A stretch of DNA of 64,000 nt from Anadara kagoshimensis (taxonomy: Eukaryota > Mollusca > Bivalvia > Arcoida > Arcidae), in contig CM037872.1 of the NCBI GenBank assembly GCA_021292105.1, forward strand, positions 15,464,791 through 15,528,790, in the 5' to 3' direction. Made by a program: the position numbers and the translations under genes. This document shows, piece by piece, positions 1 through 35,073 of the stretch. A model generated the notes under the pieces. It was not told the DNA's origin. It ran no database searches and saw nothing but the letters and a program-made list of their open reading frames with translations. Each line of letters starts with the position of its first letter. Position 1 is the stretch's first letter.

Positions 1-2024
1 ACCAATACAGTAAAATCTGCCAACAAAAGCCATTTGAAGGACTGGTTGAAAATGGTCTTTGTTGACAGGTGAATTTTGTAGACAGGGTCCATATTTCCAT
101 GACCAGTTACTTTCCTTGATTTGCATTTGGCATATTAGGTAGTTTTCCTGTCCATTGTAAAAGTCATTAATTGAATTTATTTATTTAATTCACATTCGAT
201 TTAAGTTAAATAAAATCAAAAAACATTGCAGTAACATCTGTTGTTTTATATGAATATTTTAGGGATATTTAAAATGAAAAATATGCATAAGGTGACCTAG
301 TTAGCTTCAAAGTAACCATTCTTGCAATACCTTTAGCCCCTAGGCTTATAATTTGGATTTCTTCTTTCTACAAAAGGAATGGTGTAAACGATGGTGTTGG
401 TTGGTTTGATAATCCTCTGCAACAATACAATTACTACTATTATTATTTGTCAATTAAGCATCTGTGTTTAATGTTTTGTATTTCATGTTATGCATATTGA
501 ATTCATAAGCCTAATTAAATGTAAAAACATAACTGTTCTGCAGTCCTCTGGTTTTGCTCTACATACTGAAAAAGTTGTTTTCCATGCATTGCACATATAC
601 CCTTCCTTTATCTGTGCCTTGTATGCAAATTTTGAGCATTGAAGGGTAATTCTTATACATTTACATTTTGTATGAGTAAAATCCATACCACACATCAGAA
701 AGACAACCTTGTTTTACACTTGTGATTACAATTAGTATACAGGTCAACCAGGTTTGATTTACACCCACCTGAGGTACATTAAGGTATATATACTATACAT
801 TGGTTTTTCTCTGCTGAAGAAAGCCAAAATATACTTGTTTTGTAATACAATTCCAGGTCTACAAACCTTATATTTTTGGTATGTAATATGATATAAATTA
901 CAGAAATGTCAAAATAAGATTACAATATTTGATTTTATATTAAAGATAAATAGACTACATCTATCTAAGTTACCTGTAACAATAGTAGTATTTGTAATTA
1001 AAATATACACATTTACAATGGTCTTTTAGAAAAATATTGTTACTATTTGTACATGTCCAGGTAACTTAATTACATTGTCAGTCCTATTGAAAGGTGATAA
1101 AAAATCAATACTTCAGAAGAATCAGACACTGCTATTAATAGACTTTTGGAAAAAATAAGGAAAATTAATAAAGAAGAACATAAATAACTGTAACAAATTA
1201 ATGATAATTAATTTCTATGTTAAATGTAAGTGATCAAAATGTTAAATTGAAATACTTTTCAAATCCATCCAAAACACTGAGGGGTTAAATGTCAAAGCAA
1301 CAACACAGTAAAGTTTGTCTTGAAATTGCACTGGTTAAAAGCTTATTTCTCATTTTTGGCTGGGTTGCACGGAGTGCAAATCCGGTTTATAGTATGGTGA
1401 ATGTCAGGCGGGTGGGGAAAATAGGGTACCAACGGGGTACCTACTTTGTGAACTCAACTCCTCCTACAGTTTTCAAGCAAAAACCTTGAAACTTCACAGA
1501 ATGTTTCTATATATATTGAAGATGTGCACCCGACTTTATGGAAATTTTTCAAGATTGTTTCCCCATTTTTCCAGACTTTGAAACTTAGTCACTTTGTACT
1601 GTATATATCAAAAGATTATCAAAGAAATGGCAACCTGACCCATTGAGTCTTTGACTCATTTTTGACATTAATCTGACATTATCATTAGAATTTATCAGTT
1701 TCTTTGCTGCCATCTTGCGTCTGAATGTGCAGAAGGTTTGAGGTTTATACTAACACACATTGATTGAAACTATTATTTCATTTTTGTATCACTATTATAT
1801 AAGGTGTTATGATTTCTTCAATAATTTATTGATGAGGATTTTGTTTCCGAGGATGCCATTTAGTGATCATTGTAGACAAGGAATCAATCAGGCAGCTGTA
1901 AAGGTGGCCGCTCATCACATTTGGCTGGTGGCTAATCTTCAGAAGTTATTTATGTAGTAAAACTGTAAGGAACAGATTAGGACCTAGTGCTATTGATAAG
2001 CAACTGCTCAGCGTGGGGGGATGG

Positions 2025-3325: not shown

Positions 3326-5124
3326 TAGCTCACCTGACCGAAAGGTCATGTGAGCTTATGGCATAGTGCAGCATGTGTATGTGCGTGCATGCGTGCATGT
3401 GTGCGTGCGTCATTAACACCTATTTTCGACATCTCCTCTGAAACTACAAAACAGATTTCAATGAAACTTGGTGAGAAGTATATATGGCCGGGTGCAATTT
3501 AGATTTGTTTGTGGCGTTGCCATGGCCACCATAACTAAGTCAAGGTGACCTAGGGGTGCAAAAATCTTAAAAAATCTTCTTTTCGGAAACCAAGTATTGG
3601 AGAAAACTTCTGATATGATATTTGGCTTCTCTAGGGTCTTAAGCCTATAGTTTGTTCAATTTGTAAAATTCGAACGAAAAATAGGTTACGCGTTTTTGCG
3701 TTTAATTTTGAAAAAATCGTAAATAGCTTCAAATTGTTATAATATGATTATTTGACCAGATAATGACATAGGGTTTTCAGTTTTGACATATTGATATATT
3801 GCAAAATGAGGTCAAGGTCAATTGTGAAGGTCATGACCTATTTTTTTGGCCTCGATTTTAATTATTATCTGAAAAACTACAAAATGTTTGTATAGACATG
3901 TATATGAAATTGTTGTAGATATTGATACAACGATCATTTTGATATATAGATTAATTCATGAGTTCAAAGGTCAAGGTCACAGATGCAAAAGAATACTGAA
4001 ATGGTTAATTATCTTGAAAACTATTGACTTTTTGTATAGGCATGTATATTAAAATGTTGTAGGTATTGATACAACGATCATTTTGATGTTTAGGAAAAGG
4101 TCATGAGTTCAAAAGTCAAGGTCACAGATGCGAAACAATACCGAAATGGTTAATTATCTCAAAAACTATAAACTTTTTATATAGACATGTATATTAGAAT
4201 ATTGTTGGTATTGATGTAACGATCATTTTGATATATAGATTAAGGTCATGGGTTCAAAGGTCAAGGTCATAGATGCAAAAGAATACTGAAATAGTTAATT
4301 ATCTCGAAAAGTATTTACTTTTTGTATATGCATGTATATTAAAATATTGTAGGTATTGATACAACAATCATTTTGATGTATAGGAAAAGGTCATGAGTTC
4401 AAAGGTCAAGGTCACAGATGCAAAACAATACCGAAATGGCTAATTATCTTGAAAACTATAAATTTTTGTATAGACATGTATATTAGAATATTGTTGGTAT
4501 TGATGTAACAATCATTTGATATATAGATTAAGGTCATGGATTCAAAGGTCAAGGTCATAGATGCAAAAGAATACTGAAATGGTTAATTATCTCTAAAACT
4601 ATAAACTTTTTGTATAGACATATATTTCAGAATATTGTTAGTATTGATGTAACGATCATTTTGGAATATAAATTAAAACCATGAGTTCAAAGGTCAAATT
4701 CACAGAGAAATGGTTAATTATCTTGAAAAGTATTACCTTTTTGTATAGGCATGTATATTAGAATTCATACAATGATCATTTTGATTTATTGAAAAAGGTC
4801 ATGGGTTCAAAGGTCAAGGTCACAGATGCAAAACAATATTGAAATGGTTAATTTTTTCAAAAAACTATAAACTCTTTGTATAGGCATGTATATTAAAAGA
4901 TTAGGTATTGGCCTCAGAAAGATTTTGATATATTAATAAAGGCCATACGTTTAAGGGTCAAGGTGACAGATACCAAAAAAATCCCAAAATAGCCTTTTTT
5001 TTTTTTTACTTTTGTACTTTTGTTTTTACTATTTTAGCCTCAAATTGTTAATATTATGAAAGAATTTGACATTTGAGCTATTATTTATCAGGTGAGTGTA
5101 TAAGGCCCAATGGGCCTCTTGTTT
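3326..5124 (+). repeat. 1.8 kb interspersed repeat element with internal tandem repeats
   Basis: The element opens with a small hairpin (TCACCTGACC gaaa GGTCATGTGA) and closes with AAGGCCCAATGGGCCTC followed by TTGTTT. I remember this start-and-end style (AGCTCACC... to ...CCTCTTGTTT) from many bivalve genomic sequences, but cannot name the family without a Dfam or Repbase search. Between the ends lie a G/T-rich tract (about 3375-3412), text such as 'aaacttggtgagaagta', and a long internal tandem array. No open frame of useful length is present, so it is non-autonomous. A diverged second copy begins near 63180. A SINE head lies on each side. Confidence 0.65.
3880..4990 (+). repeat. Internal tandem array, about 145 bp period, about 8 copies
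   Basis: The phrase 'ggtcaaggtcacagatgc' or a close variant recurs near 3967, 4112, 4258, 4403, 4546, 4691, 4813 and 4955. Spacing is about 145 bp, with one shortened unit of about 122 bp. Each unit also carries 'ttgatacaacgatcatttt' and 'tttgtataggcatgtat'. The last unit is the most diverged. This array makes up most of the element that contains it. Confidence 0.85.
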
Positions 5125-10672: not shown

Positions 10673-10731
10673 CTGTAAATAACACACCACTGGTTGTAAA
10701 ATAAGTGGAATAGTTGAACGCTGTCTAATAC
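10673..10731 (+). repeat. Solitary satellite monomer outside the array
   Basis: One 59 bp unit of the array family (the 'ggttgtaaaataagtggaa' type) stands alone, about 700 bp before the array, between the tRNA-like relic and the SINE. It has small changes (gaacgctg, and an extra base in aatacagta). A copy occurs at 30773-30831. Confidence 0.9.
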
Positions 10732-10761
10732 AGTAGAACATCGATGGTGGCTCGAAGTCCA

Positions 10762-11106
10762 TGGAGTTGAGTTGAGTAATGGTGTTTAACGTCCCAGTCA
10801 AGAATATTTCACTTATATCGAGACATCGCCATCTATAGGCGAAGGAGCAGAAATTTTGCCTGTGCGTTGCGCTGATGGCATTATACAGCAGGGTTCTTTA
10901 GCGTGTCAAGCCTACCGTGACACGGGACCTCGTTTATTTTAAGTTCCCATCCGAAAGAACCGTGACTTTCATTTCGTAATGCCAAGTGCTTGGTGAAAGA
11001 ACAGTCACTACCCACTTTTAAGTCTTGGGTCAGACTCGGCCGGGGATCGAACCCATGACCTTCCACTTACGGAGCGAGCACTCTACCAACTGAGCTACCG
11101 CAGTGG
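10762..11106 (-). repeat. tRNA-derived SINE flanking the array on the left
   Basis: On the minus strand a tRNA-like head starts near 11106, with box A TAGCTCAGTTGG (11087-11098) and box B GGGTTCGATCCCCG (11041-11054). A body of about 260 bases follows, including conserved-looking text such as 'cacgggacctcg' and 'gcgttgcgctgatgg'. The same SINE, in opposite orientation and diverged, lies at 60517-60775. This family of long-bodied tRNA SINEs is, from memory, common in molluscs. It is duplicated at about 30862-31203. Confidence 0.85.
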
Positions 11107-11137
11107 TACTGAACTTTGGCCAAATATTCAAGCCATC

Positions 11138-11161
11138 GGGGGGGGGGGGGGGGGGGGGGGG
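11138..11161 (+). repeat. Poly-G tract, 24 G
   Basis: A homopolymer of 24 G just left of the array. The matching tract in the right copy has only 13 G (31235-31247). Confidence 0.95.
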
Positions 11162-11442
11162 TTGAGCGACCGAACACCGAGAGACAATCTTCATTAGATC
11201 TAGTGTCCAGGTTCCTGTTTAATCAACAGTCATAAGATAGTGAAAATTGAAAAACGTCATGGAAAATAAAATGTCCCTTAAAAATTCATGATGATATCTC
11301 GAAGTTTTCAAACTTCATTTGAAAATAAAATGTTGAACTTCGAACTGGAAATCTATTGATATCCACAGTTCAATTGAATTAAATAATTTTGGTTGAAAGT
11401 TAAAGTAAATAAAAACAGCTGATGATAGATAGTTCTACTGCA

Positions 11443-19029: not shown

Positions 19030-19424
19030 TTATTACCACTTTGGTAAAATACTTACAATCTGATTGGTTAAAATCTTATTTATACTATTCCATATATTTA
19101 ATTTTCCAAGGCAATACGGTCGCTTGAACGGGTAATACGGATACCACGTGATCGGGTAATACGGAGCTTCAAACCTGTCGGGTTATGGCCGCCCCCATGG
19201 TCCGCTTCAAGTATTGCAGTATATTTTTAACCTGTTGGTTTTCAAAGAAGTATTAAAAGTAACAAACGATTTTTAATTTTATAAATTACAGAATATATTA
19301 AAATTAAAATTTTGTGAATAAGATTCAAAATTCGAGAGTTAAAAGTTCGTATCTGCGGCTAAAGGGGAACAACTCGCATAGAAACGTCGTTTGCAAAGTG
19401 CAGATAGATCACTACCCTTGTATA

Positions 19425-19789
19425 AGTGATTGCGATTTATGGAAATTATACTCTAGCATTCACATGAATCCAAATACGCCCACGGGACTGTTTAATAAAG
19501 TACATTTTAATAACGTTTATATTTCTGTCGTCGGGGTGGTGAAAACATTCCTGAAATGTCGAAATCTACTTTTTCTGTGGCTACAGATTACTCTACAGGG
19601 GCCAAATTTGTAAAGAAAACTGTAGATGAGTTAAAAAAAAATCGTCGCGAAAATGAAAAGGAGAAATACACAGGAATAATGCCTGCTGACAACACGCCAA
19701 TGTGTCCTGTAGCTTCCTACGAAAAGTACATGTCCGTTTACTCTGCTGGAGAGAAAGGAACAACGCTAATATTTCAAAGATTTGAATGA
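19425..19789 (+). pseudogene. Frameshifted fragment of a Crypton/DUF3504-type tyrosine recombinase
   Basis: Two overlapping frames together read as the N-terminal half of the DUF3504 recombinase domain found in Cryptons and in Crypton-derived host genes. The first frame gives DLWKLYSSIHMNPNTPTGL and then a KVHFNN stretch. About 19515-19522 the homology moves to another frame, which gives YFCRRGGENI, TKF-like text, VDELKKNRREN and CPVASYEKYM, ending at a TGA at 19787-19789. The Arg in RRG fits the first catalytic arginine of the family. The second catalytic block and the active-site tyrosine are absent. This is a truncated, broken copy inside insert A. It may belong to the element or be captured cargo. 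Confidence 0.65.
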
Positions 19790-20285
19790 CACGGTTAAAA
19801 ATAAATCAATTAATCATTTACTTACATTAGGCGAGTCGTTACTAACAATCCTAATTTCGATCTAGTCCATACATTATAACTCCTTTAATGCACCAAAACG
19901 TATTTTTGGATGAGTGTTTACAATGGGAAAAATTTTGACAAAATGGCGGTGTCTTTCGTGTGACGTAATGATGACGGAAGAATTTATTCTTTACGTAGGT
20001 TTGCAAGGGGTACAATGAAGGGTAGCTCCAGTTTGAAGAGTTATAATTTTTAATCGGATAAACGGCATTTTTTAAACTAACTTATCTCAGAAATGTTTAA
20101 TAAATTTAATATTTCCGTATTTTCAATTAATTAAAATTTGATAGAAAAGATTAACTTGTTGAGTTGTTCCAATTTAATTATTTTATACTAATATTTTAAA
20201 CCACATTACAATATTCCAGTAACTGCAGCATAAGCTTAAAGTTTTCAAATGTTGATCGAAATCAGACCAAAGTGGTAATAAATTC

Positions 20286-20421
20286 GTTATTTGAGATTTT
20301 CCCGGGGTATACGGGATGGTATGACCGTCTTGGGTTTAGTATTCCTTCGGCTGCGCCTCAGGAAATACGAAACCCAAGACGGTCATACCATCCCGTATAC
20401 CCCGGGAAAATCTCGAATAAC
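20286..20421. repeat. Hairpin tail of insert A
   Basis: Arms of about 60 bp (20286-20345 and 20361-20421) pair with about three differences around a 15-base loop, TTCGGCTGCGCCTCA. The arms include CCCGGGGTATACGGGATGG. The loop motif TCGGCT(G/T)CGCCTC recurs in the hairpin at 34614-34737 although the arms there are unrelated. Confidence 0.92.
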
Positions 20422-20425
20422 TAAT

Positions 20426-22222
20426 ATACCACTGGTAAAATGATTGGTGTAGATGAAGGCTGTCTAATAGTAGTAAATAACACACTACTGGTTGTAAAAT
20501 AATTGGAATAGTTGAAGTCTGTCTAATAGTAGTAAATAAAATACAATTGTTAAAATGATTGGAGTAGTTGAAGGCTGTCTAATAGTAGTCAATAACACAT
20601 CACTGGTAAAATGATTGGAGTAAATGAAGGCTGTCTTATAGTAGTCAATAACACACCACTGGTAAAATGATTGGAGTAAATGAAGGCTGTTTAGTAGTAA
20701 TAAATAACACAGCACTGGTAAAATGATTGGAATAGTTGAAGGCTGTCGAATAGTAGTAATTAACACACCACTGGTAAAATGATAGGAGTCGTTGAAGGCT
20801 GTCTAATAGTAGTAAATAACATACCCCTGGTAAAATGATTGGAGTAGATGAAGGCTGTTTAAAAGTAGTAAAACACACACCACTGGTAAAATTATTGGAG
20901 TAGATGTAGGCTGTCTCATAGTAGTCAATAACACACCACTGGTAAAATGTTTGGAGTAGTTGAAGGCTGTCTAATAGTAGTAAATAACACACTACTGGTT
21001 GTAAAATGATTGGAATAGTTGAAGGCTGTCAAATAGTAGTAAATAACACACCACTGGTTGTAAAATGATTGGAGTATGTGAAGGCTGTCTAATAGTAGTC
21101 AATAACACATCACTGGTAAAATTATTGGAGTAGTTGAAGGCTGTCTAATAGTAATAAATAACACCACTGGTTGTAAAATAATTGGAGTATTTGAAGGCTG
21201 TCTAATAGTAGTAAATAACACACCACTGGTAAAATGATTGGAGTAAATGAAGGTTGTCTAATAGTAGTCAATAACACACAACTGGTAAAATGATTGGAGT
21301 AAATGAAGGCTGTCTAATAGTAGTCAATAACACACCACTGGTAAAATGATTGGAGTAAAGGAAGGCTGTCTAATAGTAGTCAATAACACACCACTGGTAA
21401 AATGATTGGAGTAAAGGAAGGCTGTCTAATAGTAGTCAATAACACACCACTGGTAAAATGATTGGAGTAAATGAAGTCTGTCTAATAGTAGTCAATAACA
21501 CACCACTGGTAAAATCATTGGAGTAAATGAAGGCTGTTTAGTAGTAATAAATAACACAGCACTGGTAAAATGATTGGAATAGTTGAAGGCTGTCGAATAG
21601 TAGTAAATAACACACCACTGGTAAAATGATAGGAGTCGTTGAAGGCTGTCTAATAGTAGTAAATAACATACCACTGGTAAAATGATTGGAGTAGATGAAG
21701 GCTGTTTAAAAGTAGTAAAACACACACCACTGGTAAAATTATTGGAGTAGATGTAGGCTGTCTAATAGTAGTCAATAACACACCACTGGTAAAATGTTTG
21801 GAGTAGTTGAAGGCTGTCTAATAGTAGTAAATAACACACTACTGGTTGTAAAATGATTGGAATAGTTGAAGGCTGTCAAATAGTATTAAATAACACACGA
21901 CTGGTTGTAAAATGATTGGAGTATGTGAAGGCTGTCTAATAGTAGTCAATAACACATCACTGGTAAAATTATTGGAGTAGTTGAAGGCTGTCTAATAGTA
22001 ATAAATAACACCACTGGTTGTAAAATAATTGGAGTATTTGAAGGCTGTCTAATAGTAGTCAATAACACACCACTGGTAAAATGATTGGAGTAAAGGAAGG
22101 CTGTCTAATAGTAGTCAATAACACACCACTGGTAAAATGATTGGAGTAAATGAAGTCTGTCTAATAGTAGTCAATAACACACCACTGGTAAAATGATTGG
22201 AGTAAATGAAGGCTGTCTAATA
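20426..22222 (+). repeat. Satellite array, block 2
   Basis: The same monomer family continues. Within it a segment of about 550 bp starting near 20640 recurs near 21486, an offset of about 847 bp, including the private marker 'tttagtagtaataaataac'. This is a local higher-order duplication of about 15 monomers. Confidence 0.95.
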
Positions 22223-23209
22223 CCGTAAATCGGGAAATTTTGGCTGTAGTTTAATTTTGGTTTATTTGGCACCCAACTTAAAAGTGCCAAAATTAAACAC
22301 ACCAAAATAATACATATTCTAAAAAAAGAAATGCCAATATTTACCTGAAAATCGATGTTCCGTAATAGAGCACATTTATCTTAATCTGCCGGAAAACGGT
22401 CATATTTGCCAGACTTGTCCGATAAAAATTTATTTTGACCGACGTGAAAAATCACCAATTGGACATGTTTTGTTTTCGGACATTTTCAATTTTACAACAG
22501 GAATATAAACGGACTAATCAGTTTTCGGTCCGACAAAAATAAACTAGCGCTAGTCTGTCTGCCGGTCTTTAAAACCCTACCCGACTTCATTAAGTATATC
22601 CTACGATATTGTCCTTACCGCGTGTTTACCTGTCATCTAATCAGGTGATTGTTTATTAATCAGTAAATACTTATGGACTTAAGTAGTCGCGTGTCTATTT
22701 CTTTTGTTTCCCAGTTAGAATCATCATAACTTTCTTTAAACGTGTGTTTGTTTAATTGTAAAATGTGTTGATTACGGAAGCCATAACGAGTGTCGGTCAA
22801 GGGTGATAAGGTTCGACGCGGGGTGTTGAAAATTAACTACTACGCGCTTCGTAATTGTTTCATTATTAATGAACTGTCCCCTTATACATTACTTCTGTCT
22901 TTAACTTGCATATATAGTATATACCGATAAATCGGTATTTCAATTTGAATTATCGTTATTTTATGAAACCCGGAAGGCTTAATTGTGCATTCCATTTCAT
23001 CTCTAATTTATAAATTACAACACTTCCGGTTTTTAATCAGCATAATCCGTTTGTCTTGTGGTTGTTTGTTAACATCTTATTCAATGAAGTGCCAAAAATA
23101 AAACGCCTTATTCAGTGAAGTGCCAAATTTAAACACACCAAAATCAAACATCCACATTTTGGGAGAAAACCGCCAAATTATCCCGACGCCAAAATTTCCC
23201 GATTTACGG
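22223..23209. mobile_element. Insert C: TA-flanked DNA transposon, non-autonomous
   Basis: A 987 bp insert has perfect 22 bp terminal inverted repeats (22223-22244 and 23188-23209), beginning CCGTAAATCGGG. Satellite flanks are gtctaa-TA on the left and TA-gtagtc on the right, so the uninterrupted monomer is restored by removing the insert and one TA. A TA duplication is typical of Tc1/mariner-like elements. Near both ends a 'gtgccaaa...aaacacaccaaaat' phrase recurs. No transposase frame is visible, so it would need an enzyme from elsewhere. It is absent from the array right of the gap. Confidence 0.88.
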
Positions 23210-26200
23210 TAGTAGTCAATAACACACCACAGGTAAAATGATTGGAGTAAAGGAAGGCTGTCTAATAGTAGTCAATAACACACCACTGGTAAAATGATTG
23301 GAGTAAATGAAGTCTGTCTAATAGTAGTCAATAAAACACCACTGGTAAAATGATTGGAGTAAATGAAGGCTGTCTAATAGTAGTCAATAACACACCACTG
23401 ATAAAATGATTGGAGTAAATGAAGGCTGTTTAATAGTAGTCAATAACAAACCACTGGTAAAATGATTGGAGTAAATGAAGTCTGTCTAATAGTAGTCAAT
23501 AAAACACCACTGGTAAAATGATTGGAGTAGTTGAGGCTGTCTAATAGTAGTCAATAACACACCACTGGTAAAATGATTGGAGTAAATGAAGGCTGTCTAA
23601 TAGTAGTCAATAACACACCACTGGTAAAATGATTGGAGTAAAGGAAGGCTGTCTAATAGTAGTCAATAACACACCACTGGTAAAATGATTGGAGTAAATG
23701 AAGTCTGTCTAATAGTAGTCAATAACACACCACTGGTAAAATGATTGGAGTAAATGAAGGCTGTCTAATAGTAGTCAATAACACACACAGGTAAAATGAT
23801 TGGAGTAAAGGAAGGCTGTCTAATAGTAGTCAATAACACCACTGGTAAAATGATTGGAGTAAATGAAGTCTGTCTAATAGTAGTCAATAAAACACCACTG
23901 GTAAAATGATTGGAGTAAATGAAGGCTGTCTAATAGTAGTCAAAACACCACTGATAAAATGATTGGAGTAAATGAAGGCTGTTTAATAGTAGTCAATAAC
24001 ACATCACTGGTAAAATGATTGGAATAAATGAAGGCTGTCTAATAGTGGTCAATAACACACCACTGATAAAATGATTGGAGTAAATGAAGGCTGTCTAATA
24101 GTAGTAAATAACACAGCACTGGTCAAATGATTGGAGTAAATGAAGGCTGTCTAATAGTAGTCAATAACACACCACTGGTAAAATGATTGGAGTAAATGAA
24201 GGCTGTCTAATAGTAGTCAATAACACACCACTGGTAAAATGATTGGAGTAAATGAAGGCTGTCTAATAGTAGTCAATAACACATCACTGGTAAAATGATT
24301 GGAGTAAATGATGGTTGTCTAATAGTAGTCAATAACACACCACTGGTAAAATGATTGGAGTAAATGAAGGCTGTCTAATAGTAGTCAATAACACATCACT
24401 GGTAAAATGATTGGAGTAAATGATGGTTGTCTAATAGTAGTCAATAAAACACCACTGGTAAAATGATTAGAGTAGTTGAAGGCTGTCTAATAGTGGTCAA
24501 TAACACACAACTGGTAAAATGATTGGAGTAAATGAAGGCTGTCTAATAGTAGTAAATAACACACCACTGGTTGTAAAATAAGTGGAATAGTTGGAGGCTG
24601 TATAACAGTAGTAAATAACACACCACTGGTTGTAAAATGATTGTAGTAGATGAAGGCTGTCTAATAGTAGTAAATAACACACTACTGGTTGTAAAATAAT
24701 TGGAAGAGTTGAAGTCTCTCTAATAGTAGTAAATAAAATACAATTGGTAAAATGATTGGAGTAGTTGAAGGCTGTCTAATAGTAGTCAATAACACATCAC
24801 TGGTAAAATGATTGGAGTAAATAAAGGATGTCTTATATTAGTCAATAACACACCACTGGTAAAATGATTGGAGTAAATGAAGGCTGTCTAGTAGTAGTAA
24901 ATAACACAGCACTGGCAAAATGATAGGAGTCGTTGAAGGCTGTCTAATAGTAGTAAATAAAACACCACTGGAAAAATGATAGGAGTCGTTGAAGGCTGTC
25001 TAATAGTAGTAAATAACATACCACTTGTAAAATGATTGGAGTAGATGAAGGCTGTTTAAAAGTAGTAAAACACACACCACTGGTAAAATTATTGGAGTAG
25101 ATGAAGGCTGTCTAATAGTAGTCAATAACACACCACTGGTAAAATGATTGGAGTAGATGAAGGCTGTCTAATAGTAGTAAATAACACACTACTGGTTGTA
25201 AAATTATTGGAGTAGAAGAAGGTTGTCTAATAGTAGTAAATAACACACCACTGGTTGTAAAATTATTGGAGTAGAAGAAGGCTGTCTAATAGTAGTAAAT
25301 AACACACCACTGGTAAAATGATTGGAGTAGTTGAAGGTTGTGTAATAGTAGTCAATAACACACCACTGGTAAAATGATTGGAGTAGTTGAAGGCTGTCTT
25401 ATAGTAGTAAATAACATACCACTGGTTGTAAAATAAGTGGAATAGTTGAAGGCTGTATAATAGTAGTAAATAACACACCACTGGTTTTAAAATGGTTGGA
25501 GTAGATGAAGGCTGTCTAATAGTAGTAAATAACACACTACTGGTTGTAAAATAATTGGAATAGTTGAAGTCTGTCTAATAGAAATAAATAAAACACCAAT
25601 GGTAAAATGATTGGAGTAGTTGAAGGCTGTCTAATAGTAGTCAATAACACACCACTGGTAAAATGATTGGAGTTAATTAAGGCTGTCTTATAGTAGTAAA
25701 TATCCCACCACTGGTTGTAAAATAAGTGGAATAGTTGAAGGCTGTATAATAGTAGTAAATAAAACACCACTGGGTGTAAAATGATTGGAGTAGTTGAAGT
25801 CTGTCTAATAGTAGTAAATAACACACCACTGGTAAAATGATTAGATTAGTTGAAGGCTTTCTAATGGTAGTCAATAACACACCACTGGTAAAATGATTGG
25901 AATAGTTGAAGGCTGTCTAACAGTAGTAAATAACACACCACTGGTAGAATGATTGGAATAGTTGAAGGCTGTCTAATAGTAGTAAATAACACACCACTGG
26001 CAAAATGATAGGAGTCGTTAAAGGCTGTCTAATAGTAGTAAATAACACACGACTGGTTGTAAAATGATTAGAGTAGATGAAGGCTGTTTAAAAGTAGTGA
26101 AACACACACCACTGGTAAAATGATTGGAGTAGATGAAGGCTGTCTAATAGTAGTCAATAACACACCACTGGAAAATGTTTGGAGTAGTTGAAGGCTGTCT

Positions 26201-29135
26201 AATAGTAGTAAATAAACACCACTGGTTGTAAAATGATTGAAGTATACGATGGCTGTCTAATAGTAGTAAATAACACACCACTGGTTGTAAAATAAGTGGA
26301 ATAGTTGAAGGCTGTCTAATAGTAGTAAAAAACACACCACTGGTTGTAAAATTATTGGAGTAGTTGAGGGCTGTCTAATAGTAGTAAATAACAGCACTGG
26401 TTGTAAAATGGTTTGAGTAGTTGAAGGCTGTCTAATAGTAGGAAATAACACACCACTGGTTGTAAAATGATTGGAGTAGATAAAGGCTGTCTAATAGTAG
26501 TAAATAACACACCACTGGTTGTAAAATGATTGGAGTAGATAAAGGCTGTCTAATAGTAGTAAATAACACACCACTGGTTGTAAAACGATTGAAGTAGATA
26601 AAGGCTGTCTAATAGTAAATAACACACCACTGGTTGTAAAATGATTGGAGTAGATAAAGGATGTCTAATAGTAGTAAATAACACACCACTGGTTGTAAAA
26701 TAAGCGGAATAGTTAAAGGCTGTCTAATAGTAGTAAATAACACACCACTGGTTGTAAAATGATTGTAGTAGTTGAAGGCTGTCTAATAGTAGTAAATAAC
26801 ACACCACTGGTTGTAAAATGATTGTAGTAGTTGAAGGCTGTCTGATAGTAGTAAATAACACACCACTGGTTGTAAAATGATTGTAGTAGTTGAAGGCTGT
26901 CTAATATTAGTAAATAACACACCACTGGTTGTAAATTGATTGTAGTAGTTGAAGGCTGTCTAATAGTAATAAATAATACACCACTGGTTGTAAAATAAGT
27001 GGAATAGTTGAAGGCTGTCTAATAGTAGTAAATAACACACCACTGGTTGTAAAATTATTGGAGTAGAAGAAGGCTGTGTAATAGTAGTAAAAAACACCAC
27101 TGGTTGTAAAATGATTGGAGTAGATGAAGGCTGTCTAATAGTAGTATATAACACACCACTGGTTGTAAAATGATTGGAGTAGTTGAGGGCTGTGTAATAG
27201 TAAATAACACACCACTGGTTGTAAAATGATTGGAGTAGATAAAGGATGTCTAATAGTAGTAAATAACACACCACTGGTTGTAAAATAAGTGGAATGATTA
27301 AAGGCTCTCTAATAGTAGTAAATAACACACCACTGGTTGTAAAATGATTGTAGTAGTTGAAGGCTGTCTAACACACCACTGGTAAAATAATTGGAATAAA
27401 TGAAGGCTGTCTTATAGTAGTAAATAACATACCACTGGTTGTAAAATAAGTGGAATAGTTGAAGGCTGTATAATAGTAGTAAATAACACACCACTGGTTT
27501 TAAAATGGTTGGTGTAGATGCAGGCTGTCTAATAGTAGTAAATAACACATTACTGGTTGTAAAATAATTGGAATAGTTGAAGTCTGTCTAATAGTAGTAA
27601 ATAAAACACCACTGGTAAAATGATTGGAGTGGTTGAAGGCTGTCTAATAGTAGGCAATAACACAACACTGGTAAAATGATTGGAGTAGTTGAAGGCTGTC
27701 TAATAGTAGTCAATAACACATCACTGGTAAAATGATTGGAGTAAATGAAGGCTGTCTAATAGTAGTAAATAACACACCACTGGTTGTAAAATAAGTGGAA
27801 TAGTTGAAGGCTGTATAATAGTAGTAAATAAAACACCACTGGTTGTAAAATGATTGGAGTAGTTGAAGGCTGTCTAATGGTAGTCAATAACACACCCCTG
27901 GTAAAATGATTGGAATAGTTGAAGGCTGTTTTTAAAATGGTTGGAGTAGATGAAGGCTGTCTAATAGTAGTAAATAACACACTACTGGTTGTAAAATAAT
28001 TGGAATAGTTGAAGTCTGTCTAATAGAAATAAATAAAACACCAATGGTAAAATGATTGGAGTAGTTGAAGGCTGTCTAATAGAGTCAATAAAACACCACT
28101 GGTAAAATGATGGAGTTAATTAAGGCTGTCTTATAGTAGTAAATATCCCACCACTGGTTGTAAAATAAGTGGAATAGTTTGAAGGATGTATAATAGTAGT
28201 AAATAAAACACCACTGGGTGTAAAATGATTGGAGTAGTTGAAGTCTGTCTAATAGTAGTAAATAACACACCACTGGTAAAATGATTAGACTTAGTTGAAG
28301 GCTTTCTAAATGGAGTCAATAAACAACACTGGTAAAATGATTGGAATAGTTGAAGGCTGTCTAACAGTAGTAAAAACACACCATGGTTAAAATGATTGGA
28401 ATAGTTGAAGGCTGTCTAATAGTAGTAATAACACACCACTGGCAAAATGATAGGATTCGTTGAAGGCTGTCTAATAGTAGTAAATAACACACCATGGTTG
28501 TAAAATGATTAGAGTAGATTGAAGGCTGTTTAAAGTAGTGAAACACACACCCACTGGTAAAATGATTGGAGTAGATGAAGCTGTCTAATAGTAGTCAATA
28601 ACACACCACTGGAAAATGTTTGGAGTAGTTGAAGGCTGTCTAATAGTAGTAAAAAACACCACTGGTTGTAAAATGATTGAAGTATACGATGGCTGTATAA
28701 TAGTAGTAAATAACACACCACTGGTTGTAAAAATAAGTGGAATAGTTGAAGGCTGTCTAATAGTAGTAAAAAACACACCACTGGTTGTAAAATTATTGGA
28801 GTAGTTGAGGGCTGTCTAATAGTAGTAAATAACAGCACTGGTTGTAAAATGGTTTGAGTAGTTGAAGGCTGTCTAATAGTAGGAATAACACACCACTGGT
28901 TGAAAATGATTGGAGTAGATAAAGGCTGTCTAATAGTAGTAAATAACACACCACTGGTTGTTAAAAACGATTGAAGTAGATAAAGGCTGTCTAATAGTAA
29001 ATAACACACCACTGGTTGTAAAATGATTGGAGTAGATAAAGGATGTTAATAGTAGTAAATAACACACCAACTGGTGTAAAATAAGCGGAATAGTTAAAGG
29101 CTGTCTAATAGTAGTAAATAACACACCACTGGTTG
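23210..29135 (+). repeat. Satellite array, block 3
   Basis: Mostly 56 bp monomers to about 24.5 kb, then a mixture. A cassette with 'gattgaagtatacgatggctg' is near 26.2 kb and again near 28.68 kb. From about 27930 to the gap the text repeats about 25490-26740 but with many one-base deletions and insertions (for example 'aatagagtcaat' and 'gatggagtt'), which suggests poor consensus at a contig end. Confidence 0.95.
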
Positions 29136-30135
29136 NNNNNNNNNNNNNNNNNNNNNNNNNNNNNNNNNNNNNNNNNNNNNNNNNNNNNNNNNNNNNNNNN
29201 NNNNNNNNNNNNNNNNNNNNNNNNNNNNNNNNNNNNNNNNNNNNNNNNNNNNNNNNNNNNNNNNNNNNNNNNNNNNNNNNNNNNNNNNNNNNNNNNNNNN
29301 NNNNNNNNNNNNNNNNNNNNNNNNNNNNNNNNNNNNNNNNNNNNNNNNNNNNNNNNNNNNNNNNNNNNNNNNNNNNNNNNNNNNNNNNNNNNNNNNNNNN
29401 NNNNNNNNNNNNNNNNNNNNNNNNNNNNNNNNNNNNNNNNNNNNNNNNNNNNNNNNNNNNNNNNNNNNNNNNNNNNNNNNNNNNNNNNNNNNNNNNNNNN
29501 NNNNNNNNNNNNNNNNNNNNNNNNNNNNNNNNNNNNNNNNNNNNNNNNNNNNNNNNNNNNNNNNNNNNNNNNNNNNNNNNNNNNNNNNNNNNNNNNNNNN
29601 NNNNNNNNNNNNNNNNNNNNNNNNNNNNNNNNNNNNNNNNNNNNNNNNNNNNNNNNNNNNNNNNNNNNNNNNNNNNNNNNNNNNNNNNNNNNNNNNNNNN
29701 NNNNNNNNNNNNNNNNNNNNNNNNNNNNNNNNNNNNNNNNNNNNNNNNNNNNNNNNNNNNNNNNNNNNNNNNNNNNNNNNNNNNNNNNNNNNNNNNNNNN
29801 NNNNNNNNNNNNNNNNNNNNNNNNNNNNNNNNNNNNNNNNNNNNNNNNNNNNNNNNNNNNNNNNNNNNNNNNNNNNNNNNNNNNNNNNNNNNNNNNNNNN
29901 NNNNNNNNNNNNNNNNNNNNNNNNNNNNNNNNNNNNNNNNNNNNNNNNNNNNNNNNNNNNNNNNNNNNNNNNNNNNNNNNNNNNNNNNNNNNNNNNNNNN
30001 NNNNNNNNNNNNNNNNNNNNNNNNNNNNNNNNNNNNNNNNNNNNNNNNNNNNNNNNNNNNNNNNNNNNNNNNNNNNNNNNNNNNNNNNNNNNNNNNNNNN
30101 NNNNNNNNNNNNNNNNNNNNNNNNNNNNNNNNNNN
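29136..30135. other. Assembly gap, exactly 1000 N
   Basis: A round 1000 N is normally a placeholder of unknown size between scaffolded contigs. The two long open frames that span it consist of undefined residues and mean nothing. Confidence 0.98.
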
Positions 30136-31528
30136 GGATCAAAGCAATTGTTTACAATGGATATATTTGGCCTTTGAACAATGGTAATGCAGCAAATATT
30201 TGAATAATTTCTGTTGCACTACAACATGTACAAGGAATAAAGTGAAATTTAGTTTTCATAGATGTAGTAAAATTATAAAATGACTTTTGAAACAATGCAA
30301 TAGTCCTCCTTGTACTGCCTTGAACGCTTGTCCACTGTACTTATACATAATATGAGCAAGACTGCTGTCATTTGTGATACATGCCCAGTGTATTTTACTT
30401 TACAAATTGTAAACATTATCATAGTAAATTGATTAAATTTTGATTTCATTAAATGTCATATTCAGAAATAATATTTATTAATTTTTATTGGCTGTTTGAT
30501 TAATTTATGAAATATTATAAATTATACATTTGTTGAATAAAAATCAATCATAAAACTATTATTATTAATTAATCATTATCATAATGTAAAGTTTAATGCT
30601 TTTAAAACCTCCATAAATATTATTTTTATTGGTTAGCAATAACATGACTTTAATAAAATACTACATGATTGATCGGTCTCACTATTATAACCTGGGTGAC
30701 TCAGTGGTAGAGTATTGGGTCATAACCAGGTCATACAGACAACTTTAAAAATTGAAATACTCATTTTTTGCCTGTAAATAACACACCACTGGTTGTAAAA
30801 TAAGTGGAATAGTTGAACGCTGTCTAATACAGTAGAACATCGATGGTGGCTCGAAGTCCATGGAGTTGAGTTGAGTAATGGTGTTTAACGTCCCAGTCAA
30901 GAATATTTCACTTATATCGAGACATCGCCATCTATAGGCGAAGGAGCAGAAATTTTGCCTGTGCGTTGCGCTGATGGCATTATACAGCAGGGTTCTTTAG
31001 CGTGCCAAGCCTACCGTGACACGGGACCTCGTTTATTTTAAGTTCCCATCCGAAAGAACCGTGACTTTCATTTCGTAATGCCAAGTGCTTGGTGAAAGAA
31101 CAGTCACTACCCACTTTTAAGTCTTGGGTCAGACTCGGCCGGGGATCGAACCCATGACCTTCCACTACGGAGCGAGCACTCTACAACTGAGCTACCGCAG
31201 TGGTACTGAACTTTGGCCAAATATTCAAGCCATCGGGGGGGGGGGGGTTGAGCGACCGAACACCGAGAGACAATCTTCATTAGATCTAGTGTCCAGGTTC
31301 CTGTTTTAATCAACAGTCATAAGATAGTGAAAATTGAAAAACGTCATGGAAAATAATATGTCCCTTAAAAATTCATGATGATATCTCGAAGTTTTCAAAC
31401 TTCATTTGAAAATAAAATGTTGAACTTCGAACTGGAAATCTATTGATATCCACAGTTCAATTGAATTAAATAATTTTGGTTGAAAGTTAAAGTAAATAAA
31501 AACAGCTGATGATAGATAGTTCTACTGC
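30136..31528. repeat. Right copy of the duplicated segment (matches 10036-11442)
   Basis: This restarts at the equivalent of 10036, inside the ACAA1 3' UTR, so it has the polyadenylation signal (AATAAA at 30236-30241) but not the coding exon. It repeats the tRNA-like relic (about 30687), solitary monomer (30773-30831), SINE on the minus strand (about 30862-31203) and poly-G tract (13 G). Single-base losses relative to the left copy, for example in the SINE head near 31167 and 31184, fit an unpolished contig end. Confidence 0.95.
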
Positions 31529-34500
31529 AGTAGTAAATAACACACTACTGATTGTAAAATAATTGTAATAGTTGAAAGCTGTCTAATAGTAGAAAATAAC
31601 ACACCACTGGTAAAATGATTGGAGTAGTTGAAGGCTGTATAATAGTAGTAAATAATACACCACTGGTTGTAAAATGATTGGAGTAGATGAAGGCTGTCTG
31701 ATAGTAGTAAATAACACACCAGTGGTTGTAAAATAAGTGGAATAGTTGAAGGCTGTCTAAAAGTAGTAAAGGTTGTAAAATTGGAATAGTTGAAGCCAAC
31801 TTGAAGGCTGTCTAATAGTAGTAAATAACACACCACTGGTTGTAAAATAAGTGGAATAGTTGAAGGCTGTCTAATAGTAGTAAATAACACACCAGTGGTT
31901 GTAAAATAAGTGGAATAGTTAAAGGCTGTCTAATAGTAGTAAATAACACATCACTGGTTGTAAAATGATTGGAGTAGTTGAAGGCTGTCTAATAGTAGTC
32001 AATAACACACCACTGGTTGTAAAATGATTGAAGTAGTTGAAGGCTGTCTAATAGTAGTAAATAACACACCACTGGTTGTAAAATGATAGGAATAATTCAA
32101 GGCTGTCTAATAGTAGTAAATAACACACCACTGGTTGTAAAATGATTGGAGTAGTTGAAGGCTGTCTAATAGTAGTCAATAACACACCACTGGTAAAATG
32201 ATTGGAATAGTTGAAGGCTGTCTAATAGTAGTAAATAACACACCACTGGTAAAATGATTGGAGTCGTTGAAGGCTGTCTAACAGTAGGAAAGCCAAGTCC
32301 AAATTGTGCGTTGGCCGGGCTGGCTATCCTTCTGTAATAGTAGTAAATAACACAGCACTGGTAAAATGATTGGAATAGTTGAAGGCTGTCTAATAGTAGT
32401 AATTAACACAGCACTGGTAAAATGATTGGAATAGTTGAAGGCTGTCTAATAGTAGTAATTAAAACACCACTGGTAAAATGATTGGAGTAGACGAAGGCTG
32501 TCTAATAGTAGTCAATAACACATCACTGGTAAAATGTTTAGAGAAGTTGAAGGCTGTCTAATAGTAGTAAATAACACACCACTGGTAAAATGATTGGAGT
32601 AGACGAAGGCTGTCTAATAGTAGTCAATAACACACCACTGGTAAAATGTTTAGAGAAGTTGAAGGCTGTCTAATAGTAGTAAATAACACACCACTGGTAA
32701 AATGATTGGAGTAGATAAAGGCTGTCTAATAGTAGTCAATAACACACCACTGGTAAAATGATTGGAGTAAATGAAGGCTGTCTAATAGTAGTCAATAACA
32801 CACCACTGGTAAAATGACTGGAGTAAATGAAGGCTGTCTAATAGTAGTCAATAACACATCACTGATAAAATGATTGCAGTAAATGAAGGCTGTCTAATAG
32901 TAGTCAATAACACATCACTGATAAAATGATTGGAGTATATGAAGGCTGTCTAATAGTAGTCAATACCACATCACTGGTAAAATGATTGGAGTAGTTGAAG
33001 GCTGTCTAATAGTAGTCAATAACACACCACTTGTAAAATGATTAGAGTAAATGAAGGCTGTCTAAAAGTAGTCAATAACACATCACTGGTAAAGTGATTG
33101 GAGTAGTTGAAGGCTGTCTAATAGTAGTCAATAAAACACCACTGGCAAAATGAATGGAGTAAATGAAGGCTGTCTAATAGTAGTCAATAACACACCACTG
33201 GTAAAATGATTGGAGTAAATGAAGGCTGTCTAATAGTAGTAAATAACACATCACTGGTAAAATGATTGGAGTAAATGAAGGCTGTCTAATAGTAGTCAAT
33301 AACACATCACTGGTAAAATGTTTAGAGAAGTTGAAGGCTGTCTAATAGTAGTAAATAACATACCACTGGTAAAATGATTGGAGTAGATGAAGGCTGTTTA
33401 AAAGTAGTAAAACACACACCACTGGTAAAATTATTGGAGTAGACGAAGGCTGTCTAATAGTAGTCAATAACACACCACTGGTAAAATGTTTAGAGAAGTT
33501 GAAGGCTGTCTAATAGTAGTCAATAACACACCAATGGTAAAATGATTGAAGTAAATGAAGGCTGTCTTATAGTAGTAAATAACCCACCACTGGTTGTAAA
33601 ATAAATGGAATAGTTGAAGGCTGTATAATAGTAGTAAATAAAACACCACTGGTGGTAAAATGATTGGAGTAGGTGAAGGCTGTCTAATAGTAGTCAATAA
33701 CACACCACTGGTAAAATGATTGGATTAGTTGAAGGCTGTCTAATAGTAGTCAATAACACACCACTGGTAAAATGATTGGAATAGTTGAAGGCTGTCTAGT
33801 AGTAGTATATAACACACCACTGGTAAAATGATTGGAGTAGATGAAGGCTGTTTAAAAGTAGTCAATAACACACCACTGGTTGTAAAATGATTGGAGTAGT
33901 TGAAGGCTGTCTAATAGTAGTAAATAACACACTACTGGTTGTAAAATGATTGGAGTAGTTGAAGGCTGTTAAATAGTAGTAAATAACACACCACTGGTTG
34001 TAAAATGATTGGAGTAGAAGAAGGTTGTGTAATATTAGTAAATAGCACCACTGATTGTAAAATCAGTGGAATAGTTGAAGGATGTCTAATAGTAGTAAAT
34101 AACACACCACTGGCTGTAAAATGATTGAAGTAGATGAATGCTGTCTAATAGTAGTAAATAACACCATTTGTTTTAAAATGATTGAAGTAGATGAAGGCTG
34201 TCTGATAGTAGTAAATAACACACCACTTGTAAAATGATTGGAGTAGTTGAAGGCTGTCTAATAGTAGTAAATAACACAGCACTGGTAAAATGATTGGAGA
34301 AGTTGAAGGCTGTCTAATAGTAGTCAATAACACACCACTGGTAAAATGATTGGAGAAGTTGAAGGCTGTCTAATAGTAGTCAATAACACACCACTGGTAA
34401 AATGATTGGAGAAGTTGAAGGCTGTCTAATAGTAGTCAATAACACACCACTGGTAACACGATTGGAGTAAATGAAGGCTGTCTGATAGTTGTAAATAACA

Positions 34501-34602
34501 CACCACTGGTAAAATGATTGGAGAAGTTGAAGGCTGTCTAATAGTAGTCAATAACACACCACTGGTAAAATGATTGGAGTAGATGAAGGCTGTCTGATAG
34601 TA
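31529..34602 (+). repeat. Satellite array, block 4
   Basis: Starts at the same junction as block 1 (just after 'ttctactgcagtag') and follows its monomer order for about the first 600 bp, then with deletions relative to it; for example a 59 bp-rich stretch at about 12.7-13.4 kb has no counterpart at this point. A monomer run with 'tttagagaagttg' matches about 13.9-14.2 kb. Confidence 0.95.
32287..32333. repeat. Non-satellite spacer inside the array (right copy)
   Basis: Matches the spacer at 12554-12600 with one substitution (ccgggctgg against ccgggttgg). Confidence 0.85.
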
Positions 34603-35073
34603 TATAAATATTACATTTCTGATAGGGTGACAGTCCATATTGTCACCCCGAGAAATTTCATTGTCAAACGAGGCGAAGCCGAGGTTGACAATGAATTTCG
34701 AGGGGTGACAATATGGACTGTCACCCTATCAGAAATGCAATTTATTTTATTATACCGATTGTTCGTGATTATAATACTATGCAACCAAAGTATACTGGAT
34801 TGAAATCATGATAAGCAATGAGCAATTTGTAAGACGCTTGTAACATTGATCATATTTAACATTACTTTAGAAAAGCGGTTTACTGATTAAGAAGACGAAT
34901 GTGTTCGAACCGCATACGCAGTTTTTCTGCGCATGTGACATTTTTGTAATGTCAACCGCTCACGTAATGTCACCCTGTGACGTCAGATTTTCTTAAGTCC
35001 GAGGGTGACATTAAATTTACGCAAACGCTTATTAACCAATCAAATTTCGAGAAATTTACAAAAGGTATAATAA
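34603..35073 (-). mobile_element. Insert B: short relative of insert A with hairpin and inverted repeats
   Basis: A 471 bp block interrupts the array between TA and TA (34601-34602 and 35074-35075), a possible target duplication. Read on the minus strand it starts TTATTATACC (35073-35064), has TGATTGGTTAA from base 32, an inner complement of the 10 bp repeat at 34747-34756, then the hairpin (34614-34737), then TAATAT. This is the same order as in insert A. The core is only about 310 bp and carries no open frame of note, so it would be a non-autonomous form. It has no counterpart in block 1. Confidence 0.78.
34614..34737. repeat. Hairpin tail of insert B
   Basis: Arms of about 54 bp (34614-34667 and 34685-34737) pair with a few differences, including GATAGGGTGACAGTCCATAT. 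The loop at 34668-34684 reads, on the minus strand, CCTCGGCTTCGCCTCGT, sharing TCGGCT(G/T)CGCCTC with the hairpin of insert A. Confidence 0.92.

Follow-up and report, generated by a model that had tools for sequence, protein, structure and literature searches.

A stretch of 64,000 nucleotides (nt) of the genome of the bivalve Anadara kagoshimensis (contig CM037872.1, positions 15,464,791 to 15,528,790; hereafter the window) contains an array of a 56-base-pair (bp) satellite (window positions 11442-60198) that harbours, among further inserts, two elements named here insert A and insert B. Both carry a hairpin that lies beyond an inner inverted copy of their 5' terminus, and the question raised by this locus is which enzyme mobilises them and what such a tail contributes to their movement. 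The original prediction, made from the letters of the window, had placed the two inserts in one unfamiliar transposon family. From the study of their copies and relatives in the genome, A and B are probably non-autonomous elements of Crypton type, served by a tyrosine recombinase of the DUF3504 class, whose ends would act as a one-strand folded site resembling the attC sites of integrons.

Architecture of the inserts

In what follows, R denotes the 5' terminus, R' its inner copy, and L' and L the two feet of the hairpin; the predicted circle junction is L-spacer-R. The features of insert A, in window coordinates and with lengths of proteins in amino acids (aa), are:

19030..20426, plus strand: insert A, non-autonomous element of 1397 bp, ends taken from 31 copies
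19030..19045, plus strand: R, the 5' terminus and left recombination arm, 16/16 complementary to the inner copy
19061..19071, plus strand: TGATTGGTTAA block at base 32, of which TGATTGG is retained in families A-E
19553..19789, plus strand: remnant of a tyrosine recombinase gene (DUF3504-like), 78 aa, recognised through Pfam and long-frame relatives in the genome
20266..20281, plus strand: R', inner inverted copy, 100% complementary to the 16-bp terminus
20282..20286, plus strand: inner 5-nt spacer ATTCG, between R' and the hairpin foot
20287..20420, plus strand: hairpin, with foot L' (from 20287), long arms, apex and foot L (GAATAA end at 20420)
20347..20359, plus strand: conserved apical loop TCGGCTGCGCCTC, bottom strand GA-GGC-GCA-GCC-GA
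20421..20426, plus strand: outer 6-nt spacer CTAATA, element-borne, in 30/31 A copies

Insert B is composed as follows:

34601..35073, minus strand: insert B, non-autonomous element of 473 bp, ends taken from 38 copies
35058..35073, minus strand: R, beginning with TTATTATACC
35032..35042, minus strand: TGATTGGTTAA block at base 32
34747..34762, minus strand: R', 88% complementary to R
34610..34741, minus strand: hairpin, arms 34610-34657 / 34694-34741, 94% complementary
34670..34682, minus strand: apical loop TCGGCTTCGCCTC, bottom strand GA-GGC-GAA-GCC-GA
34601..34606, minus strand: outer 6-nt spacer TATATA, in 36/38 copies; best reading, register ambiguous by 1-3 nt

The layout attributed to both inserts is real, since inverted termini and hairpins were computed in each of them (in A, inverted-repeat pairing gives 20279-20343 / 20364-20428, with a complementarity of 94%), and the loop is present in both, at 20347 and 34670; the comparison of the window with Rfam gave no match. 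The limits were adjusted on the basis of the junctions and of empty sites in the window, from 20425 to 20426 in A and from 34603 to 34601 in B, with the outer start of A (19030) and the outer end of B (35073) kept. The one-sided hairpin tail and the common transposon design were upheld, as was the block said to start at base 32: TGATTGG begins there in A, in B and in three further families, C, D and E. The notion of a single family has to be replaced by that of at least five (A-E, with a sixth, F, partly seen) which have one architecture in common. The hairpin arms, described as unrelated, are so by eye among A, B, D and E, whereas a decayed element of family C (L118) has A-like arms. The TAATAT supposed to follow both hairpins is not a shared feature: in A it consists of the end of the spacer CTAATA plus one target base, and in B it lies inside the element.

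The probable recombinase and autonomous relatives of the inserts

Two families built on this architecture encode an intact tyrosine recombinase of Crypton type, which gives good support for naming it as the mobilising enzyme. L122 (family D) is a complete element of 2238 bp with an open frame of 452 aa (444 from the first ATG), and L123 (family E) an element of 2008 bp with an open frame of 456 aa (452 from the first ATG), both with matching ends. The two families have the inner inverted terminus, hairpin arms of 64-71 bp, the loop TCGGCTGCGCCTC or TCGGCTGACGCCTC, the ends CTAATA or CTTATA, and TGATTGG in its usual place. The D protein matches the Pfam models DUF3504 (1.4e-8, over the cut-off) and Phage_integrase (5.9e-4, under the cut-off; the model spans residues 271-337). 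Within the catalytic tetrad R-H-R-Y, H297xxR300 and Y332 are invariant in 4/4 rows of the alignment; the first R (VRLYFCRR) was placed by eye in D, E and L124, the stretch being missing from the aligned piece of L121, which reads GDKS where the other rows have GHKS. Among PDB profiles the closest is that of the tyrosine recombinase XerA, whose E=0.29 is not significant, and a single-sequence PDB search gave no match. In the genome the E protein has at least 101 matches (93 of 916 candidates scored), several of them with intact long frames, and finds D-type proteins at 44-55% identity, with 49% to the D protein.

DUF3504 derives from Crypton recombinases, and those of DIRS and Ngaro do not match it, according to the survey by Kojima and Jurka (2011; PMC3212892). 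A retroelement of DIRS/Ngaro type was discarded as a candidate, D and E (2.0-2.2 kb) showing one long frame, the recombinase, and no reverse transcriptase (RT). The Crypton/DUF3504-type identity of families D and E is well supported, and that of A is strongly implied by its gene remnant and by L121. A genome search with the remnant recovered A copies together with longer frames (at least 149 matches; 150 of 884 candidates scored), while L121, of A type and cut short at the hairpin loop, carries a recombinase frameshifted into frames of 110 and 202 aa. Given the remnant and this A-type element with a broken recombinase, A most plausibly derives from a recombinase element by internal deletion. 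As a separate observation, stretches resembling each other occur in L121 (~694-1213, minus strand), beside the A-type recombinase copy, and in L118 (~960-1500), inside the family C element; we take them to be RT-like, and they may be there by chance insertion.

Copies, ends and target sites

The search of the genome (1.115 Gb, 36 contigs) with terminus and loop found many copies, and the reversed-pattern control of every exact terminus or loop count was 0. The TTATTACC terminus with TGATTGGTTAA has 86 exact matches, 83 of them A-like and three belonging to families C and F; the TTATTANNCC terminus with TGATTGGTTAA has 319, nearly all B-like among the 100 matches listed; and the loop cores have 74 (A/D type) and 183 (B type). 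Using the whole A sequence, at least 101 matches were obtained (40 of 1757 first-look candidates scored), and long A copies (880 bp or more), including the window's own, number at least 41 among the genome matches; the B sequence gave at least 97, of which 42 full or near-full (40 of 1069 candidates scored). A copies are scattered over many contigs, and the A terminus at C1:30588832 belongs to an ordinary A element of ~1.3 kb. On contigs C1-C5, an exact B-type terminus stands 200-1300 bp away, on the correct side, from 25 of 40 B-type loops, against a chance expectation of 0.01; conversely, 25 of 87 B-type termini have an exact loop partner, with 62 termini and 15 loops lacking one. Eight of the 74 A/D-type loop matches, chosen away from A termini, are all in D-type hairpins (L138-L145). 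The sixth family, F (L117, C13:54341000-54342832), was seen through its 5' end, and its inner copy, ~225 bp into it, has AAAAG after it as E does; inspection by eye revealed no hairpin in this locus.

Loci were fetched with their flanks (41 for A, L001, L009-L047 and L120; 39 for B, L048-L086), and strict end patterns, matched at both ends in 31 A copies and 38 B copies, allowed the full ends to be defined. The B copies are partly dependent, L065 and L074 having the same two flanks and L079 and L084 nearly so. The order at the junctions is element arm, 6-nt spacer, target arm, and the spacer is constant on the right and variable on the left. For A, the right hexamer is CTAATA in 30/31 copies and the left ones are 31 distinct in 31; for B, the right is TATATA in 36/38 and 32 distinct left hexamers were counted in 38 copies. 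Five single-copy left spacers of D are all different, and its right spacer is CTAATA in 11/13 pattern-matched rows, the other two being inverted hairpins (L141, L145); L132 and L134 have no usable 3' end, and L138, which lacks part of the spacer, was unmatched. Family E has three distinct left spacers and CTTATA on the right in 3/3.

The target sites of A and B are degenerate palindromes. In A, the arms are ATAY at -10 to -7 on the left (18/31) and RTAT on the right (23/31), with an outer-flank background of ~0.02. The B target is TGACAW..WTGTCA, with CA at -9/-8 in 22/34 and TGT on the right in 22/34 (backgrounds 0.06 and 0.035), a count that leaves out the tandem copies L056, L059 and L066, and L051, caught by the filter accidentally. 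Insertion is exact, without duplication or loss, because the joined flanks occur uninterrupted in neighbouring satellite units of the window (12 occurrences of a 20-mer for A and 4 of a 29-mer for B); for A this presumes that the site was the rarer CATACC variant of the satellite (14 exact, versus 306 of the common CACACC), and insertion on the common form would imply one changed base. The copies gave no sign of a target site duplication, the best fixed-offset 4-mer match across the ends being 0.75 in A, where the element's own end takes part, and 0.61 in B.

The inner site and the predicted fold

The inner inverted terminus and the hairpin foot form one unit, in which the whole recombination site is repeated in inverted orientation. 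In four families (A, B, D and E) the reverse complement of R'-spacer-L' reproduces the outer junction with a spacer that is 1-2 nt shorter. In A, the inner GAATAA-CGAAT-TTATTACC corresponds to the outer GAATAA-CTAATA-TTATTACC, and CGAAT was found in 41/43 rows, which are not independent copies (7 come from the array of L039). The inner CCAGATAA-CGAAT-TTATC of D corresponds to CCAGATAA-CTAATA-TTATC, and the inner CCATGTAA-CTTTT-TTACCC of E (3 rows) to CCATGTAA-CTTATA; in B, GTAATATT-TATT-TTATTATACC (27/28 internal rows) stands for the outer GTAATATT-TATATA-TTATTATACC. Head-to-tail junctions of the predicted form are present in the genome, L-CTAATA-R in D (L122) and L-TATATA-R in B (L056 and L066).

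The complementarity of R and R', with limits of R' drawn by eye, is 16/16 in A, 14/16 in B, 14/16 in C, 12/18 (gapless) in D and 14/17 in E. When the 3' end is joined to the 5' end and folded, the structures of A, B, D and E show R-R' and L-L' pairing, interrupted near the spacer by a bulge or mismatch; in the fold of the decayed family C the R-R' pairing is kept and the hairpin is partial. The loops read on the bottom strand are GCA (A and D), GAA (B), and GTCA or GTAA (E), and the mismatches that flank them are presumably tandem G.A pairs. GNA or GNNA loops closed by at least two G-C pairs are unusually stable DNA mini-hairpins, as stated in PMC4686876, and the bottom-strand loops of the four families conform to this rule.

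A proposed folded-strand model of movement

These features are consistent with a mechanism in which the element would leave as a circle joined L-spacer-R. On one strand, the pairing of R with R' and of L with L' would fold the ends into a double-stranded site in which one or two bases of the spacer stay unpaired; the recombinase would exchange only the bottom strand of this site with the target, and replication would then complete the insertion. The two strands of a spacer are cut by a tyrosine recombinase at opposite edges. If the bottom strand alone were exchanged, the target spacer would stand at the left junction and the element spacer at the right one, with the circle spacer regenerated; such an exchange is proposed here because the right spacer is constant and the left variable, where a two-strand exchange would mix the spacers. 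The loop, as a GNA/GNNA mini-hairpin of the bottom strand, might nucleate the fold or mark the strand. The earlier suggestion that the loop, or the ability to fold, is what matters to the mobilising enzyme agrees with the predicted fold, and the role of the latter would be the one just outlined.

The anatomy of integron sites offers the closest parallel. According to PMC2727003, an attC site forms when a single strand folds so that two core sites lie antiparallel, with an imperfect central spacer, one or more extrahelical bases and a variable terminal stem; it is recombined through the bottom strand only, and its shape is conserved more than its sequence. The same text states that strand choice is determined mainly by the extrahelical base, with no role for the terminal structure; since attC strand choice ignores that structure, the spacer bulge would be the likelier strand signal in the families described here, and the loop may do something else. 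On the side of the present elements, the tyrosine recombinase and the predicted anatomy, fold and spacer pattern fit this plan. That animal transposons work like integron cassettes, by a recombinase acting on a single folded attC-like strand and a one-strand integration completed by replication, has in our judgement about even chances; the choice of strand would be set by the spacer bulges and perhaps also by the GNA mini-hairpin loop. Integron cassettes are bacterial, lack a recombinase of their own and are inserted at an attI platform by IntI, an integrase encoded elsewhere, whereas D and E encode their own recombinase and the elements described here insert at many chromosomal sites.

A number of observations weigh against the folded-strand model or against its extension to both inserts. 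A constant right spacer with a variable left one would be produced just as well by any enzyme moving a fixed strand with no target duplication. The circular and the single-stranded intermediate are both putative; head-to-tail L-spacer-R junctions were seen in D and B, and those expected for A and E are predictions. The spacer model was derived from A and then fitted to B, whose register is ambiguous by 1-3 nt, and the window B (foot ATTGC) and 11 other B loci have an altered foot or inner site that falls outside the B inner-site pattern. By its own score the A remnant (19553-19789; Pfam DUF3504 E=0.026) is under the cut-off, and no autonomous partner of B was found, no listed recombinase match lying, by eye, inside a B element (100 of 319 B termini listed). 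Candidate sources of such a partner are a group of recombinases of ~400 aa (C9:20389188, C10:25136581 and C13:22920940) and the locus C3:14024818. The predicted energies of the two loop strands differ little in A and B with flanks (-1.6 vs -1.2 kcal/mol), and the difference is zero for the bare loop cores.

The state of the loop in individual copies also belongs to the evidence on this side. The A inner sites (n=42) include 24 with a normal loop, 12 with none recognisable and 6 with an inverted one, all six in the L039 array; among the A copies with no recognisable loop, L018, L033, L034 and L041 contain pieces of an inverted loop. Thirty-nine of 40 B inner sites have a normal loop and one has none (a separate B scan gave 2/39 inverted), the 13 of D divide into 10 normal, 2 inverted (L141 and L145) and 1 without, and among the three E loops that of L125 is inverted. 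The hairpin apex has therefore been lost or flipped between the arms in some copies. A transposing loop-less derivative (4 genome matches) was considered and rejected: recurrent deletion is likelier, because L038 and L042, the two that can be placed, sit apart in the tree among normal-loop copies, and by tree position these two A loop losses look like independent decay. The similarity of hairpin arms is 0.959 within a copy and 0.957 between copies (20 hairpins), so that concerted evolution of the arms left no signal and there is no sign that the fold is maintained copy by copy. As a peculiarity of the A family, L039 (C7:7222852-7226563) shows A-type hairpin ends arrayed every ~196 bp in both orientations.

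Alternative explanations

Among the alternatives, the one that survives best, although it is unlikely, is a Crypton-type recombinase that performs an ordinary double-stranded, two-strand exchange, the hairpin and the inner copy being regulatory sites or a transcription terminator. It would account for the recombinase, the 6-nt spacer and the palindromic target, which are expected from any tyrosine recombinase, but unlike spacers should then land at either end, and what is seen is CTAATA at the right end of all A copies save one, with no left hexamer repeated. It also leaves unexplained why four families have an inner copy of both arms with a shorter spacer.

There is a still smaller probability that B alone is moved by a different enzyme and resembles A only through shared end motifs. 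The missing recombinase partner of B, its different target and its different spacer register speak in this direction; two recombinase matches on contig C12, 4-5 kb from the B copies L065 and L074, represent one duplicated segment, and their strands differ. B nonetheless has the same base-32 block, loop design and inner-copy rule as A, a 6-nt constant right end of its own, and exact L-spacer-R tandems.

Helentrons and their HINE derivatives, which move as rolling circles and have a 3' palindrome besides asymmetric subterminal inverted repeats, were the first hypothesis; it was dropped as very improbable because families sharing the architecture carry a tyrosine recombinase gene and the target is not TT. 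In its favour were the layout, which is that described in PMC7492417 and PMC4067079, the head-to-tail copies, and 104 Helitron_like_N (Rep) matches in the genome, many with open frames of up to ~2600 aa. D and E have, however, one long frame each, the D protein matches neither Rep/helicase nor any Helitron model in Pfam, a T is found at base -1 in 64% of 39 A ends and after CTAATA in 9% of 34, and the loop or TGATTGGTTAA occurs in 0/30 Rep loci, a weak test that covered ~1.5 kb on each side. The likeness to these elements (subterminal inverted repeats, 3' palindrome, abundant non-autonomous copies; PMC4067079 and PMC7492417) would be convergent, enzyme, target and hairpin length being different. 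Since A and B display the outline of inverted repeats plus 3' palindrome used to recognise HINEs, this outline is not diagnostic; an asymmetric inverted repeat with a 3' hairpin is by itself no proof of a Helentron, and some annotated HINEs might be misfiled. Independently of this, Helitron-type elements, apparently recently active, coexist with the Crypton type in the genome, and two A termini are found at distances of 14.8 and 16.6 kb from Rep genes, one of them being that of the ordinary A element at C1:30588832.

Relation to known Cryptons and one-strand systems

With the Crypton-type, folded-strand reading preferred, families A-E can be set beside the elements already described. Kojima and Jurka (2011; PMC3212892) describe Cryptons as devoid of terminal inverted repeats and of long direct repeats, and detected no repeats at the termini of the animal ones. 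The elements described here resemble animal CryptonA in that a DUF3504-type recombinase is the only gene recognised among them, target duplications were not found and non-autonomous derivatives abound, and they differ from the Cryptons of that account by their asymmetric inverted repeats, the 3' hairpin with a conserved loop and the internal inverted copy of the recombination site. Their ends correspond neither to the 4-6 bp terminal direct repeats of CryptonF and CryptonS nor to the repeat-free ends of animal Cryptons. With these asymmetric repeats, the hairpin and unlike spacers on the left and right, they can be regarded as a new, atypical Crypton variant. No report of hairpin-tailed or attC-like Cryptons was found in the open-access literature searched, subscription journals, Repbase and Dfam being outside the search, and the word Crypton is absent from a paper on bivalve transposons (PMC10294476). 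The families thus appear to be a Crypton-type lineage whose end structure was not found described, for which an integron-like mechanism is attractive but unproven.

A precedent for one-strand movement is offered by the SE elements of Vibrio, which, according to PMC9345347, use tyrosine recombinases, a 6-bp spacer and terminal inverted motifs, and circularise through one strand; the donor spacer ends up at one fixed end. SE elements are bacterial, have two recombinases, take their spacer from the left flank of the donor and use targets without inverted repeats (PMC9345347), whereas the spacer here is constant and the A and B targets are degenerate palindromes.

Little has been understood so far of the way in which animal Cryptons delimit their ends and transpose. 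Since the ends, the target rule, the 6-nt spacer and intact recombinase genes are now defined, transposition is directly testable. If the folded-strand model is true, a strategy of bacterial integrons would have arisen in, or been inherited by, animal transposons.

Other features of the window

The satellite array contains one more insert with inverted ends (CCGTAAATCGGGAAATTTTGGC, window positions 22223-23209) and a probable TA duplication, which resembles an ordinary miniature DNA transposon belonging to a different type. Two segments of ~760 bp (10675-11441 and 30774-31528) are 98% identical, the second shortly after a gap of 1000 N (29136-30135); the pair is either a duplication at the array edge or an assembly artefact. 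A 145-bp tandem repeat is present in 7.4 copies at 3864-4910.

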